Assembly: GCA_902801165.1 (NCBI GenBank)
Contig: CADCHI010000027.1
Span: 1 to 34,622 of the forward strand
Source: an uncultured Eubacteriales bacterium
GTDB lineage: Bacteria > Bacillota > Clostridia > Christensenellales > Aristaeellaceae
Length of the DNA: 34,622 bases
Direction of reading: 5' to 3'
The notes beneath the pieces were generated by a model, which searched no databases, was not told the origin of the DNA, and worked only from the letters and a program-made list of their open reading frames with translations. The position numbers were made by a program, and so were the translations under genes. Positions 2,631 through 12,490 of the stretch are shown one piece after another; positions within the stretch are counted from its first letter, which is position 1, and each line of letters begins with the position of its first letter.

Positions 2631-2679
2631 GAAACCACATCAGGGAACGCTTGAAAGCACAGCTGCGGAGGGATGGGGA

Positions 2680-3003
2680 ATGATCACGGTCAACCTGTAT
2701 TATACCGGCGCAAACGGCGCCGCCCGGCGCTTCGCCGAGGAGATGGAGGCCAGCGGAACTGCTGACGCCATCCGCGCCGAGGCGGGCAACCTGCGCTACG
2801 CCTACTTCCTGCCGATGGACGACCCGGAGACGGTGCTGCTCATCGACAGCTGGGAGAGCCAGGAAGCCATCGACCGGCACCACGCCTCGCCGATGATGGC
2901 GACCATCGCGGCGCTCCGGGAGAAGTACGACCTGCACATGCGGGCGGAGCGGTTCGTCAGCGCCGAGGACGCGCCGGGGGACGAGCGGTTCCTTCGCAAG
3001 TAA
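2680..3003 (+). CDS. Antibiotic biosynthesis monooxygenase (ABM)-fold protein
   Basis: 107 residues beginning MITVNLYYTG. The pattern of a first beta strand, a helix with AARRFAEEM, the strand LRYAYFLPMDDPETVLLIDS, then SWESQEAIDRHH and a final hydrophobic helix with the strand MRAERF is typical of the dimeric alpha/beta-barrel ABM family (YgiN-like). Members include quinol and haem monooxygenases and many with no known reaction; no specific activity can be assigned. The start was chosen because GGAGGG lies just upstream and because longer starts overlap the promoter. It is followed by the Nudix gene after 36 bp, so they probably form one transcript. Confidence 0.8.
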   Translation: MITVNLYYTGANGAARRFAEEMEASGTADAIRAEAGNLRYAYFLPMDDPETVLLIDSWESQEAIDRHHASPMMATIAALREKYDLHMRAERFVSAEDAPGDERFLRK

Positions 3004-3039
3004 GAGATACCGAGCATAGAGGATGGAGATGAAGAACCC

Positions 3040-3543
3040 ATGCTGAAGGACCAGGGCTTTTGCCCGGCGTGCGGCGCAAAGCTGATCGAGAAGCCGCTGG
3101 ACGGAGAGGGCGTCGTGCCCTTCTGCGAGAACTGCGCGGCCTTCCGCTTTCCCCAGTACAACGTGGCGGTGAGCATGATCACCCGCGACCCCGCCACCGG
3201 GAAGATACTGCTGATCCAGCAGTACGGGCGGCCCAGCTATATCCTCGTCGCCGGGTACGTCAACCGGGGCGAGCAGGCCGAGCACGCCGTGGTCCGGGAG
3301 ATCCGGGAGGAGACCGGCCTGACGGCCACCGAGGTGCGCTTCAACCGCACGAAGTTTTTCGAGCCGTCCAACACGCTGATGATCAACTTCACGGCCTTCA
3401 TACGCGACGCCGGGGAGCTGCACACCAACGCTGAGGTGGACCGGTACAGGTGGTTCACGCCCCAGGAGGCCCGGGAGAACATTCGCCCCAACAGCCTCGC
3501 GGCGGAGTTCCTGAACGCCTACCTGGACGGGGAAGGGCTTTAG
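3040..3543 (+). CDS. Zinc-ribbon Nudix hydrolase (NudC-like)
   Basis: 167 residues. A zinc ribbon at the N-terminus uses Cys8, Cys11, Cys29 and Cys32 (CPAC and CENC). A complete Nudix box spans residues 72-94, with the metal-binding REIREE core. This arrangement is that of the NADH pyrophosphatase group, but the protein is shorter than E. coli NudC (about 257 residues) because it lacks the N-terminal domain, and the NudC signature after the Nudix box (SQPWPFPQS) is replaced by FFEPSNTLM. It should hydrolyse a nucleoside diphosphate linked to another moiety; NAD(H) or NAD-capped RNA as substrate is only a possibility. The start has GGAGATGAAG upstream. Confidence 0.88.
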   Translation: MLKDQGFCPACGAKLIEKPLDGEGVVPFCENCAAFRFPQYNVAVSMITRDPATGKILLIQQYGRPSYILVAGYVNRGEQAEHAVVREIREETGLTATEVRFNRTKFFEPSNTLMINFTAFIRDAGELHTNAEVDRYRWFTPQEARENIRPNSLAAEFLNAYLDGEGL

Positions 3544-3669: not shown

Positions 3670-3743
3670 GGTACCGCCACGGGGACTCGAACCCCGGTTT
3701 TCGCCGTGAGAGGGCGACGTCTTAACCGCTTGACCATGGCGGC
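3669..3743 (-). tRNA. tRNA-Glu (anticodon CUC)
   Basis: 75 nt including an encoded CCA. The acceptor stem is GCCGCCA with TGGCGGT (the outermost pair is G-U), the T-arm has GGTTCGAGTCC, the D-arm has GGTCAAGCGGTTAAGAC, and the anticodon loop is CTCTCAC, giving CUC, which reads GAG. It is the promoter-distal member of a two-tRNA unit, 5 nt after tRNA-Gln. Confidence 0.95.
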
Positions 3744-3748
3744 ATACC

Positions 3749-3822
3749 TGGCTGCCGAACCTGGATTCGAACCAGGACTAAATGAGTCAGAGTCATTCGT
3801 GCTACCTTTACACAATTCGGCA
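3749..3822 (-). tRNA. tRNA-Gln (anticodon CUG)
   Basis: 74 nt including an encoded CCA. The acceptor stem is TGCCGAA with TTCGGCA; the U1-A72 pair and G73 discriminator are usual for tRNA-Gln. The anticodon loop CTCTGAC gives CUG, which reads CAG. The T-loop is GGTTCGAATCC. It is the first tRNA of the pair, after a consensus promoter. Confidence 0.95.
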
Positions 3823-5415: not shown

Positions 5416-5841
5416 TTACTTCGCGGGCTGGGAGATATTGCCGTCCACAACGTCCCGAAGGGAGATGCCGCTCAGGTAGTCGGTGACCACCTTGCCCAGG
5501 CCTATCCAGACGGGCAGGGTCTGGCAGCAGCTGCTGCGCTCGCAGGTGTTCTTGCCCTGCTCAAGGCAGGCGACCGGCGCCATGGAGCCTTCCGCCACCT
5601 GCAGGATGTCGTTCACGGTGTATTCTTCGGTCGGTTTGGCGAGCATGTAGCCGCCCTGGTAGCCACGGACCGCCCTGAGCATGTCGGCCTGGCTGAGATG
5701 CAGCGCGATCTGTTCCAGGTATTTCTTGGAAATACCCTGTCGCGCGGATACGTCCTTCAAGGTCACGTAGCCGTTCTTCTGGTTTTCCGCAATATCCACC
5801 ATCATCCGAAGAGCATAACGGCCTTTGGTTGATATTTTCAA
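5416..5841 (-). CDS. Rrf2-family transcriptional regulator (possible Fe-S or thiol sensor)
   Basis: 141 residues. It starts MKISTKGRYALRMMVDIA, the typical Rrf2 N-terminus, with the winged helix over about 25-68 (recognition helix near SKKYLEQI and wing RGYQGGY). Cysteines at 92, 100, 105 and 106 lie where IscR has its three cluster ligands (92, 98, 104), so Fe-S or redox sensing is plausible, though the spacing differs. The start codon is TTG (5839-5841), chosen because AGGGGG lies 8 bases before it and the N-terminus matches the family exactly. It is divergent from metQ. Some Rrf2 proteins, such as CymR, control sulfur amino acid uptake, so control of the neighbouring methionine transporter is inferred. 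Confidence 0.9.
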   Translation of the reverse strand: MKISTKGRYALRMMVDIAENQKNGYVTLKDVSARQGISKKYLEQIALHLSQADMLRAVRGYQGGYMLAKPTEEYTVNDILQVAEGSMAPVACLEQGKNTCERSSCCQTLPVWIGLGKVVTDYLSGISLRDVVDGNISQPAK

Positions 5842-6211: not shown

Positions 6212-6366
6212 GGTACCCGACTGAAAGAAAGGGGGCGTGCCCGGTGGAAAAGTGCGCATATGTTTCCCGCGCGGTGCTGCTGAGCCGCTGTCGAATGTGC
6301 CGCTGAAAACGAAAGAGCATGTTCGAACAACCCCGAAACCATGAATTGATACAGGAGGTAAATCCC

Positions 6367-7215
6367 ATGAAGATCCGCAAACTGTTCGTCGGCCTGCTGG
6401 CCGCTATCCTGGTCCTCTCCTCCGTCGCCGCGCTGGCCGACGTTACCATCGGCGTGCCGGACGACACCACCAACGAAGCCCGCGCGCTGCAGCTGCTGGC
6501 GGACAACGGCATCATCGAGCTGGCCGAGGGCGCGGGCGAGACCGCGACCAAGGCGGACGTCATCGCCGAGGGCATCGAGATCGTCGAGGTGCAGGCCGAC
6601 CAGCTGGTCAACCAGCTGCCCGACCTGGACTACGCCGTGATCAACTCCAACTTCGTGCTGGACGCGCTGGACGCCGGCTTTGAGATCAACACCGCCCTGT
6701 TGACCGAGGTGGAGGAGAAGTACCTGCCCCGCGCCAACGTCATCGCCGTCAACGGCGCGAACGTCGACGCCGACCTGACCAAGGCCCTGGTCGCCGCGGC
6801 CACCAGCCAGCAGGTGAAGGACTACATCGAGTCCACCTACGCCGGCGCGGTGCTCTCCGTGGTGGACGAGCCCACCGACGGCTATGACCCGGATGTGGAT
6901 TACGACGCCCTGGCCGGCACCACCCTGGTGATCGCCGCCACGCCCGCGCCCCACGCCCAGATCCTGGAGGTCGTGAAGGCGATCCTGGCCGAGAAGGACA
7001 TCAACCTGGATGTGGCCGTGTTCACCGGCTACACCGAGGAGAACCCCGCCGTGGACGCCGGCGACGCCTACGCGAACTACTTCCAGCATCAGCCCTACCT
7101 GGACGACTATGTGGCCGAGACCGGCGGCAACGTGGTCAGCGTGGCCGTGGTTCACACCGAGCCGATGGGCCTGTACGGCGGCAAGCAGGCGGACCTGAGC
7201 GCCCTGGGCAAGTAA
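6367..7215 (+). CDS. Methionine-type ABC substrate-binding protein (MetQ/NlpA family), circularly permuted
   Basis: 282 residues. Residues 1-24 are a signal peptide ending AALA. Residues 25-166 match the usual C-terminal half of MetQ: VTIGVPDDTTNEARALQLL, then QADQLVNQLPDLDYAVINSN, then IESTYAGAV, which is normally the end of the protein. After a linker rich in Asp, Pro and Tyr (167-185), residues 186-282 match the usual N-terminal half: TPAPHAQILEVVKAILAE, FQHQPYLDDY and HTEPMGLYGGK. The domain order is thus exchanged, with the join at the position where normal proteins pass from a LDDL-type loop to the AIPND strand. No lipobox cysteine is present, unlike almost all Gram-positive MetQ proteins. 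AGGAGG precedes the ATG. It should bind methionine or a similar ligand for MetNI. Confidence 0.88.
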   Translation: MKIRKLFVGLLAAILVLSSVAALADVTIGVPDDTTNEARALQLLADNGIIELAEGAGETATKADVIAEGIEIVEVQADQLVNQLPDLDYAVINSNFVLDALDAGFEINTALLTEVEEKYLPRANVIAVNGANVDADLTKALVAAATSQQVKDYIESTYAGAVLSVVDEPTDGYDPDVDYDALAGTTLVIAATPAPHAQILEVVKAILAEKDINLDVAVFTGYTEENPAVDAGDAYANYFQHQPYLDDYVAETGGNVVSVAVVHTEPMGLYGGKQADLSALGK

Positions 7216-7445: not shown

Positions 7446-8473
<1,028 letters not shown>

Positions 8474-8477
<4 letters not shown>

Positions 8478-9184
8478 ATCAGTTCGCGCTGGCGTTCACG
8501 CCTGAAAAGCTGCAGGAGGCCTGGCACGTATTCCTGACCGAATTCCCCATGGGCCTGTGGGAGACCGTCTACGTGACGGTGCTGGCCACCTTCTTTGCCA
8601 TCGTGCTGGGGCTGCCCCTGGGCATCCTGCTGGTGACCGGCGACGAGAAGGGCATCCGCCCCCTGCCGAAGCCGCTGATGAAGGTCATCAACGTGATCAT
8701 CAACTTCCTGCGCTCGGTGCCCTTCCTGATCCTGATCGTCATGGTCATCCCACTGACCCGCGCGATCATCGGCACCTCCATTGGCTCGGTGGCCTCCATC
8801 GTGCCGCTGGTGGTGGCGGCCTTCCCCTTCGTGGCCCGACTGGTGGAGTCCTCCCTGCGGGAGCTGGACCCCAACATCATCGAGATGGCCCAGAGCATGG
8901 GCAGCTCCACGATGCAGATCATCTTCCGGGTGATGCTGCCGGAGAGCGTTCCCTCGCTGGTGACCAACTTCACCCTGGCGATCACCACCATACTGGGCTA
9001 CACCGCCATGTCCGGCGCGATGGGCGGCGGCGGCCTGGGCAAGATCGCCATCAACTACGGCTATTCCCGCTACAAGTACGCGGTGCTCTACCTGGCCGTG
9101 ATCGTGCTGGTGATACTGGTGCAGGTGTTCCAGAGCATCGGCACACGGCTGGCGGCCCGGCTGGACAAGCGGATCAAGAAGTAG
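8474..9184 (+). CDS. Methionine ABC transporter permease MetI
   Basis: 236 residues with about five transmembrane helices and the BPD_transp_1 fold. The coupling-loop motif is seen in VESSLRELDPNIIEMAQSMG, followed by the typical MLPESVPSL segment and the LGYTAMSGAMGGGGLG loop, which are highly conserved in MetI. Its length is close to E. coli MetI (217), with a slightly longer N-terminus. The start overlaps the metN stop by 4 bases, indicating translational coupling and a 1:1 complex. It forms the membrane channel that receives substrate from the permuted binding protein encoded upstream. Confidence 0.96.
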
Positions 9185-9989: not shown

Positions 9990-12368
9990 TCAACCCTTCG
10001 CCGCGCTGGCGAGCCGCTTGAGCTCGCGCTCGCAGAAGTCGCACAGCTCCCCAGCGAACTCGGCGCTGGCCGCCTCGGCGACGATGCGCAGCTCGCTCCT
10101 GCGCTCGTCGGGGCAGATCCAGGCCCAGCCGCCGTCCCGGCAGAGCCGCATGCCGCCGCCCAGCTCCACCCGCGCCTCCCGCTGGGCGAGGGCGTGGAGC
10201 ACCCGCCCCGTCTGGGCGGCGGCGACGGGCACGCTGCGGCTGCTCCGGGACACGGCGGGCATGCGCTGCCGCCATTCGGACAGGGAGAGCCCCGCCGCTG
10301 TCAGGGCGCTCAGGGCGGCCAGCGCCGCCGAGATGCCGTCGGACTGGAGCAGCCATTGCAGCGGGTGGCGCTCCGCCAGGGCGTTCATCCACAGGGCGGG
10401 CTCGCCGGAGAGGTACTCCGCCCGGGCGCCGTACTGCCCGGCCAGCACCTGTATGGCCCGGGTGGCCTGCACCGGCAGCAACAGGGCCCGCTCGCCGGAC
10501 TCCAGGGCCGTCCAGGCCAGCAGCAGCTGTACCTCGCCCTCGCTCAGCGGGCCGGAGGCATCCGCCAGGGCAAAGCGCTGGCCGTCCTCCGAGAGCTCCA
10601 CGGCAACTTCATTCTGTCCTGCTGCCGCGGCTTTTTCCCCGGAATCTGCCCCTGGCATGGCTTCGTCCCCGGACGCCGCGTCGTCGAGCCGGACGGCGAG
10701 CCCCGCCCGGAGGAAGGCCCGCTCCGCCAGGGAGAGCGCCAGCGCGCCTTTTGACCGCAGCAGCACCCTCGGCGCGCGGGCCGGGTCGGCGGCGAAGCAG
10801 GCCGCCGCGCCGGCGACGTAGGCGGCGTCCGTGGGGCCCGGGTCCGCGGTGGAGGGCGTCGCGCCGGAGAAGGGGGCGGCGTAGTCCTGCCGGATGTTGT
10901 GGGCGGTGATGGCGCGCTGCTGTCCGTTGGGGAGCCTCGCGCCCAGCCGGTTCAGCGGCAGCAGGCTGTCCGGGAGTACCAGCGCGGCGCAGTCGCAGCC
11001 CAGGGCCCGCTGGGCGGCCCGGAGCTGGGGCAGCAGGCAGAGGCCCGCGTCCACCACCCGAGCGCCCTGGGCCATGGCTCCGGCGGCCGCGGCGTGCCAC
11101 AGGGCGCCCGCCCGGCCGCCCTCGCCGCGCCCCAGCAGCAGCTCCCGGGGCTTCAGGACCGAGACCACGGCCTGGGCGGCCCGGGCCGCCTGGGAGGGGC
11201 TGTCGATCTCCAGCGCGCCGGCGACGAATCCCGGCTCCCTGCGCCTGCCCCAGACCAGGTTGGCGTCCAGCCGCTCGCCGTCGGCGGCGCGCTTTTCCGG
11301 CCACAGCTTTACGCCGGGCAGCAGCACGGTCCGCTCGCCGGCCACGGAGCCCGTGCCCAGGACGCTCTCCTCGTAGGCCTGCGCACCGGGGCCCAGCGCC
11401 GCCCCGGTGGCCAGCACGCAGCCCCGGGCCTGGGCGCCCGCCTCCAGCCGTGCCCCGGGCCACAGCACGGAGCGCTTCACGCTGGCGCCTTCGCCCACGA
11501 CGCAGCCGCTGCCGAGGACGCTGCCGGGCCCGACGTAAGCCCCGGCGAGCACCCTCGCGTCGGGGCCGATCAGGCAGGGCCCCTCCAGCACGGCGGAGCG
11601 GTCCACAGCGGCGCCGGGCATCAGGGTGACCCGCGCCTCGGGGACCAGTCCCTCTAGGCGTATGCGCCCCTCCAGGGCGTCTGCGTGGGCCGCGAGGTAG
11701 GCGCGGATGTCGCCGATGTCGCACCAGTAGCCCTGCATCACGTAGCCGAACACGGGCAGCCCCTCCTTCACCAGGGCGGGGAAGAGGTCGTGGCCGAAGT
11801 CGCAGGGGCGGCCCTCGGGGACGCGCCGGAGGACCTCGGGCTCCAGGATGTAGATGCCGGTGTTGACGGTGTCGGAGACCACGTCGCTCCAGCCGGGCTT
11901 TTCATGGAAGGAACGCACCCGGCCCTCCCCATCGGCGCAGACCACGCCGTAGTCCATCGGGTTGTCCGCGTGCTTGAGCACCAGCGTGGCCAGCGCGTCG
12001 CGGCTGCGGTGAAAGGCGATGGCGTCGGTGAGGTCCAGGTCCGTGATGCCGTCGCCGGAGAGCACCACGAAGGTCTCGTCCAGGAAGTCCGCGGCCTGTC
12101 GAACGCCGCCCGCCGTGCCCAGGGGGGTCTTCTCCAGGGTGTAGCGCAGGTCCACGCCGAAGTCGTCCCCGGCCCCAAAGACGTCCATGATGGCGTCGGG
12201 CAGGTAGCCCAGCGTGGCCGCGGCCTGGGTGATGCCGTGCCTCTTAAGCAGCGCCAGGGCATACTGCATCACGGGCCGGTTCATCAGCTTGATCATGGGC
12301 TTGGGGCAGTCGCAGGTCAACGGCCGCAGCCGCGTTCCCTCGCCGCCCGCCATGATGATCGCCTTCAC
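9990..12368 (-). CDS. Sugar nucleotidyltransferase / left-handed helix / degenerate phosphomannomutase fusion
   Basis: 792 residues from the GTG start. Residues about 1-230 are a nucleotidyltransferase: KAIIMAGGEGTRLRPLT with the signature G-G-x-G-T-R-L, then CPKPMIKL, VLSGDGITDLDL and FHEKPG. Residues about 245-370 show hexapeptide (left-handed beta-helix) repeats, for example VLEGPCLIGPDARVLAGAYV. From about 375 to the end the protein follows phosphohexomutase order but has lost its motifs: no TASHNP serine loop, a weak SEDGQRFALAD in place of DGDxDR, and CPDERRSEL in place of RPSGTEP. The N-terminal part probably makes an NDP-sugar, with GDP-mannose or UDP/dTDP-glucose as candidates. AAGGA lies 11 bases before the GTG; the upstream ATG would overlap that site. 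Confidence 0.85.
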   Translation of the reverse strand: MKAIIMAGGEGTRLRPLTCDCPKPMIKLMNRPVMQYALALLKRHGITQAAATLGYLPDAIMDVFGAGDDFGVDLRYTLEKTPLGTAGGVRQAADFLDETFVVLSGDGITDLDLTDAIAFHRSRDALATLVLKHADNPMDYGVVCADGEGRVRSFHEKPGWSDVVSDTVNTGIYILEPEVLRRVPEGRPCDFGHDLFPALVKEGLPVFGYVMQGYWCDIGDIRAYLAAHADALEGRIRLEGLVPEARVTLMPGAAVDRSAVLEGPCLIGPDARVLAGAYVGPGSVLGSGCVVGEGASVKRSVLWPGARLEAGAQARGCVLATGAALGPGAQAYEESVLGTGSVAGERTVLLPGVKLWPEKRAADGERLDANLVWGRRREPGFVAGALEIDSPSQAARAAQAVVSVLKPRELLLGRGEGGRAGALWHAAAAGAMAQGARVVDAGLCLLPQLRAAQRALGCDCAALVLPDSLLPLNRLGARLPNGQQRAITAHNIRQDYAAPFSGATPSTADPGPTDAAYVAGAAACFAADPARAPRVLLRSKGALALSLAERAFLRAGLAVRLDDAASGDEAMPGADSGEKAAAAGQNEVAVELSEDGQRFALADASGPLSEGEVQLLLAWTALESGERALLLPVQATRAIQVLAGQYGARAEYLSGEPALWMNALAERHPLQWLLQSDGISAALAALSALTAAGLSLSEWRQRMPAVSRSSRSVPVAAAQTGRVLHALAQREARVELGGGMRLCRDGGWAWICPDERRSELRIVAEAASAEFAGELCDFCERELKRLASAAKG

Positions 12369-12490
12369 GAATACACACATCCTTTTTCAATGACGATAGA
12401 TTACCAGCGTGCGTTATTCTGGGCCGGGAATGCCCAGTTTATGCGCGGGATTTGTACATTTTTTGTCACAGGCGCGGGTCTGACGGCGTG

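Follow-up and report, generated by a model that had tools for sequence, protein, structure and literature searches.

Substrate-binding proteins of the MetQ/NlpA family (PF03180; TIGR00363) include the MetQ proteins of E. coli and Neisseria. In Neisseria MetQ, one lobe is reported to provide the ligand contacts R156, N213 and N238, and the other Y81, F98, H100 and Y103 (PMC6739813), and lipidation is reported as necessary for the interaction with MetNI (PMC8416018). A search of open-licence papers found no description of a permuted MetQ/NlpA protein, in line with an earlier note on this DNA; the only naturally permuted substrate-binding protein among its results is TpMglB-2 (PMC4990184). The TpMglB-2 type, proposed as Type Ic or Cluster Bc, is described mostly from treponemes and Gram-positive bacteria, and a possible link between its permutation and membrane anchoring is raised in the same paper (PMC4990184).

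The window analysed here, a stretch of 34,622 nucleotides, contains on the plus strand a metQ gene at 6367..7215 (ORF 6367-7212, stop codon 7213-7215), which encodes a protein of 282 residues. A ribosome-binding site, AGGAGG (6353..6358, plus strand), is read in the sequence eight bases 5' of the ATG. This protein shares with the described MetQ/NlpA proteins both halves of the profile, the seven ligand contacts and the neighbouring metN and metI genes, and differs from them in the reversed order of the halves, an additional linker, new termini at the crossover between the lobes and the lack of a lipobox. Four segments are distinguished, all on the plus strand. The first (6367..6438) encodes a predicted signal peptide with an AxA-type end, whose last residues are SSVAALAD and whose cleavage is inferred from the translation. 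The second (6442..6858, residues 26-164) is the usual C-terminal part of MetQ, corresponds to positions 98-234 of PF03180 and carries the contacts R39, N93 and N124. The third (6859..6918, residues 165-184) is the linker from the old C-terminus to the old N-terminus, with the motif DEPTDGYDPDVDYDALAG. The fourth (6919..7212, residues 185-282) is the usual N-terminal part, corresponds to positions 1-96 of PF03180 and carries Y222, F239, H241 and Y244.

Pfam finds PF03180 in two stretches with a total of 176 bits against a cut-off of 27, and the better of them joins residues 26-164 to profile positions 98-234. The PF03180 search of the genome places positions 97-234 of the profile at 6439-6858 and positions 1-96 at 6925-7212, with no stop codon inside. 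In the alignment with PDB entry 4ib2, residues 185-278 match positions 11-104 of the chain (i-Evalue 3e-19) and residues 27-163 match positions 111-249 (i-Evalue 1.7e-21). The protein matches 22 distinct PDB sequences, and the swap is visible in both alignments shown (4ib2 and 4k3f). Taken together, the Pfam, genome-search and 4ib2 coordinates indicate that the halves are swapped and not duplicated, as the earlier note had proposed; its boundaries for them, 25-166 and 186-282, are correct within a few residues. Since the C-terminal half precedes the N-terminal half, the protein is not colinear with PF03180 and is classed as a permuted variant of the family instead of a plain member. It scores far under the cut-offs of the NCBIfam MetQ models TIGR00363 (74.1 against 228.85) and PRK11063 (85.3 against 374). 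At E values up to 0.001, Pfam reports no family other than PF03180 in the protein, and on this result membership of the TpMglB-2-like Type Ic / Cluster Bc was rejected. No other PF03180 match was found in the source genome, a draft of 98 contigs that is 88.6% complete.

The permuted gene is the first of a metQ-metN-metI operon. The metN gene (7446..8477), which encodes an ATPase with a C-terminal NIL domain, and the permease gene metI (8474..9184) lie 3' of it on the plus strand, as the earlier note had stated. Divergent from the operon on the minus strand is an ORF (5416..5841) that we take to be an Rrf2-like regulator gene from its sequence and which, by analogy, may control sulfur amino acid uptake. 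It also adjoins the operon in close relatives, and a relative of it is found at the same place in 18 of the 106 loci of the main permuted group described below, many of which have short flanks. The window also shows two adjoining tRNA genes (3672-3743 and 3752-3822, minus strand) and an ORF of 796 residues (9990-12380, minus strand), whose product resembles a fusion of a sugar nucleotidyltransferase with a phosphomannomutase-like part.

The predicted structure of the mature protein, linker included, has a pLDDT of 93.2 and a pTM of 0.87, with block pLDDT values of 96 and 98 at the linker. In the alignments shown, the first 142 residues of this model correspond to the C-terminal part of solved MetQ structures: by sequential alignment, model residues 1-142 match 121-260 of 4k3f (rmsd 4.9 over 137 residues), 1-141 match 105-244 of 1xs5 and 1-135 match 130-262 of 3k2d. 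The predicted topology is permuted, with aligned ranges shifted relative to the solved proteins. The top Foldseek match of the model is a phosphate-binding protein and not a MetQ, because, in our reading, the sequential alignment does not cover both halves.

The seven residues equivalent to the contacts reported for Neisseria are kept, R39, N93 and N124 in the first half and Y222, F239, H241 and Y244 in the second; they are invariant in 18 aligned permuted proteins and match those of E. coli MetQ. The spacing of Y222, F239, H241 and Y244 (17, 2 and 3) equals that of Neisseria and E. coli. The spacing of R39, N93 and N124 in lobe 2 differs by indels, which shift the numbering, and these three were mapped through E. 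coli MetQ and the motif. The reported contacts divide by lobe between the first and second halves of the permuted protein, which places the break between the main parts of the lobes. A complete MetQ sequence begins here at the first crossover from lobe 1 to lobe 2, and the old termini are connected through a conserved linker some 20 residues long. The chain end of MetQ would run back into lobe 1 and leave a single covalent connection; with the break at one of the two crossovers, the lobes would have one covalent connection and not two. This single-connection hinge is inferred from the published contact positions and the general architecture of such proteins.

On the sequence and the model, the protein most likely serves MetNI as its methionine receptor, one of the two connections between its lobes being cut and an ordered linker connecting its old termini. 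It would be exported by its N-terminal signal peptide, fold as an ordinary two-lobe flytrap in which the linker holds the old termini together inside lobe 1, bind methionine between the lobes, and dock on MetI in the usual way. We are confident, short of certainty, that it is a working substrate-binding protein of the MetNI methionine importer whose chain has been cut and rejoined elsewhere. That it is instead a relic of a permuted gene, or that it binds another ligand and is not the receptor of the adjoining MetNI, appears very unlikely: the source genus lies on a long branch inside the main group, as such a reading would have it, but all seven methionine contacts are kept, the gene heads an operon whose MetN carries a NIL domain, dN/dS is well below 1 and a second PF03180 gene was not found in the genome.

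The lack of a lipobox in the 6367..7215 product, as judged by a pattern scan, counts against the receptor reading, given the reported need of Neisseria MetQ for lipidation. With the same simple pattern, a lipobox is found in 60 of 80 ordinary MetQ sequences and, among the permuted groups, in 69 of 106 main, all five Slackia, all five Gemmiger-group, one of seven group B and both twice-permuted (CP2) proteins. In the source family, Aristaeellaceae, the pattern is missing from 29 of the 34 MetQ sequences fetched, ordinary and permuted alike (20 of 22 ordinary, four of six main and five of six group B), although the source genome encodes Lgt and LspA. Since most of these sequences lack the pattern, lipid anchoring is not required there to keep the permutation. 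In two loci (L154 and L155), the N-terminus resembles by eye an uncleaved membrane helix.

Relatives were collected by scanning genome contigs (594 pattern stretches), and the best 80 of 511 confirmed relatives were kept. All of these 80 are permuted, so that chance does not account for the order: 78 show the order of the 6367..7215 gene and two (L107 and L109) have one more break. The permuted set includes isolates of Faecalibacterium, Slackia, Gemmiger, Fournierella and Lachnoclostridium, and one of its Faecalibacterium genomes is a complete chromosome. Seven genomes were searched through their loci, two of them CP2 genomes, and in the other five (G486, G487, G488, G489, which is the complete chromosome, and G490) the permuted gene is the sole match. 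In whole-gene comparisons of the 6367..7215 gene with relatives, dN/dS is 0.10-0.41 in 13 of 13; by single parts the maximum is 0.79, in the signal peptide. The permuted gene is under purifying selection, as judged from these ratios. That sequencing or assembly errors in one genome produced the order, as the draft state of the source and the many metagenome-assembled genomes (MAGs) among the relatives might suggest, is extremely improbable, as a permuted order recurs in all of the best 80 of 511 loci, independent isolates and the complete chromosome included, and the reading frame is uninterrupted, with dN/dS values that show purifying selection. Among the 231 loci examined, later 288, the halves occur as C-N, as N-C, in the CP2 order and, in one ORF, as C alone; a fused tandem of ordinary metQ was found in none of them. 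The three findings that the earlier note had named as fatal to its reading, an artefact, an ordinary order in the predicted fold and a duplicated ordinary gene in relatives, thus fall away, and sequence, relatives, tree and model support the reading of a naturally permuted MetQ/NlpA protein.

The permuted MetQ is a widespread minority form, neither specific to one genome nor confined to Clostridia. PF03180 is present in 65 of 100 relative genomes, source included. Judged from match coordinates, 22 of the 28 genomes of the source genus have the permuted form, four have only the ordinary form and two show no match; beyond the genus, nine more genomes of the source family have the permuted form. 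In wider, overlapping samples, counts are lower bounds, as only matches spanning both halves in permuted order (alignment A1) were counted and permuted matches in two pieces are missed. In Clostridia, at least 19 of 171 matching genomes among 391 are permuted (the source and a group B protein in G373 included), and in the phylum at least three of 219 among 398. The class of Slackia piriformis shows at least three of 47 among 119, and the order of G484 at least 15 and one CP2, of 68 among 245. The family of G484, with 34 matching genomes among 118, contains at least 14 main-type proteins, two of group B and one CP2, and one genome holds both a main-type and a group B protein. The search for MetQ proteins of the same order across Clostridia, suggested in the earlier note, is thus positive, also beyond that class. 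The four genomes of the source genus with a distant ordinary metQ (L164 in G005, L163 in G027, L013 in G015 and L015 in G023) have metN genes 40-52% alike at these loci, and in L164 a similar Rrf2-like gene adjoins the ordinary metQ, which would fit an exchange of the whole operon. Five genomes have two permuted paralogues, one main and one of group B: G029 (L149/L150), G033 (L147/L148), G035 (L145/L146), G038 (L152/L151) and G1243 (L261/L286).

The 231 loci yield 205 distinct proteins, one C-only ORF left out: 123 once-permuted, 80 ordinary and two CP2. Groups were named from a tree of 84 rows, representatives of the 205 proteins, and members outside the tree were assigned through the nearest representative. 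The main group contains 106 proteins, group B seven (two more were found later), the Slackia group five, the Gemmiger/Fournierella/Ruthenibacterium group five and CP2 two. The breakpoint is identical in all groups except CP2, before the xIxVPxD strand. Compared by eye, with 12 of the 106 main linkers shown, linkers are alike within groups and show no evident likeness between them: the main linker has NPTDGYD followed by DYDAL, that of group B is long and has FPAFDYD and GKTVV, and those of the Slackia and Gemmiger groups are short. Among the 106 main loci, 93 show the operon order metQ-metN-metI and the remainder are partial; six of seven group B loci show it too. The order is metN-metI-metQ in all five Gemmiger-group and all five Slackia-group loci (L180 by hand), as in 47 of the 80 ordinary proteins, of which six show metQ-metN-metI and the remainder are partial or mixed. 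A segment kept in the Slackia and Gemmiger groups is partly missing from all 18 main rows, and is also missing from two ordinary rows, L008 and E. coli.

In the 84-row tree, the permuted label requires four changes. All AU p-values are weakened, since the groups were named after inspection of the tree. Forcing all permuted rows of this set, group B included, into one clade costs 63 log units (AU p=0.086), and in a focused tree of 53 rows, a single clade of main and group B proteins is rejected (AU p=0.0016), group B being placed with E. coli-type ordinary proteins at 100/100. Slackia proteins group with ordinary proteins of their own class and do not form a single clade in a 71-row tree; the Gemmiger group lies near other ordinary proteins in that tree and weakly beside the main group in the 84-row tree (68/86). 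Unions were not rejected for main and Slackia (p=0.103), main and Gemmiger (p=0.12), Slackia and Gemmiger (p=0.057) or all three (p=0.101). In separate trees of the halves, the main and Gemmiger groups are intact in both, and the N-half tree splits Slackia.

The same cut at the inter-lobe crossover therefore probably arose at least twice, as judged from these trees, with the test of all permuted rows the weaker one (p=0.086). Two origins are likely and three or four possible; perhaps Slackia and Gemmiger/Fournierella have origins of their own, for which the AU tests are not significant. A single ancient permutation of all permuted MetQ proteins, with transfer or weak resolution scattering them in the tree, would agree with the common breakpoint, with the tolerated unions of all rows or of the main, Slackia and Gemmiger groups, and with the main and Gemmiger groups already lying on one side of a weak branch. 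It is nevertheless unlikely in view of the rejected clade of main and group B, the strong placement of the latter, the linkers that look unrelated across groups and conserved inside them, the two operon orders, and the segment retained in Slackia and Gemmiger, albeit one that L008 and E. coli also lack. By a narrow preference, we regard the inter-lobe crossover as a hot spot of permutation, with four separate cuts (main, B, Slackia and Gemmiger/Fournierella), each with its own linker, one re-permutation in a Clostridia lineage restoring the crossover, and selection, perhaps for N-terminal anchoring, repeatedly moving the N-terminus to the hinge. If so, methionine receptors would function with one or with two covalent connections between the lobes.

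The re-permutation is that of the CP2 proteins, L107 and L109, found in two MAGs and 99.6% alike. They show a lipobox signal peptide, positions 48-94 of the N-half, the C-half, a linker of the main type and positions 1-47 of the N-half, and in L107 metN and metI lie 3' of the gene. The proteins most similar to them are once-permuted (71% to L261), and in the tree they are nested in the main group, at 89/81 with L261 and 95/88 for a clade of nine rows. This nesting indicates that the ends moved twice and that the first crossover is whole again; with the ordinary N-to-C junction restored, 164-191 columns align with MetQ structures in Foldseek. As both MAGs are nearly identical, they represent one event, and no isolate with CP2 was seen.

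The permutation may have arisen from a tandem duplication whose copies were joined in frame and then lost their outer halves. The earlier note had likewise proposed a truncated tandem duplication, which is plausible at most: tandems of ordinary metQ exist, and the fused intermediate was found in none of the loci examined. In G218 (L289, contig C1, 1317000-1321500), three ordinary metQ ORFs lie in tandem on one strand (913-1758, 1836-2648 and 2668-3492 of the locus), the kind of array that could yield a permutation. A split into two half-genes that were then joined again in the opposite order would account for the missing intermediate among the 231 and 288 loci. We consider it unlikely, since ORFs of at least 120 residues in the loci include only one half-only ORF, a C-only one truncated by the start of L183 (N-only ORFs might fall below that length), and since the G218 tandem exists. 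Tandem duplication with trimming is the route we prefer.

The MetQ family thus has ordinary members beside permuted and twice-permuted ones, in gut bacteria such as Faecalibacterium, and is suited to testing whether flytrap binding proteins need two connections between their lobes and how a moved, anchored N-terminus affects binding or docking. As each half still scores as PF03180, profile-based annotation can hide such permutations. Like the MetQ protein, TpMglB-2 (Tp0684) is an ABC substrate-binding protein that is circularly permuted in nature. As described for it (PMC4990184), TpMglB-2 has a Type I, cluster B fold and binds glucose, whereas the protein described here belongs to the methionine-binding MetQ family; the TpMglB-2 permutation moves strands of the lobes and adds a fourth crossover, whereas that of MetQ cuts one. 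Unlike the TpMglB-2 type as reported there, the MetQ permutation probably has more than one origin. Engineered sensors contain man-made permutations in or around flytrap proteins, whereas the permutation of MetQ is natural.
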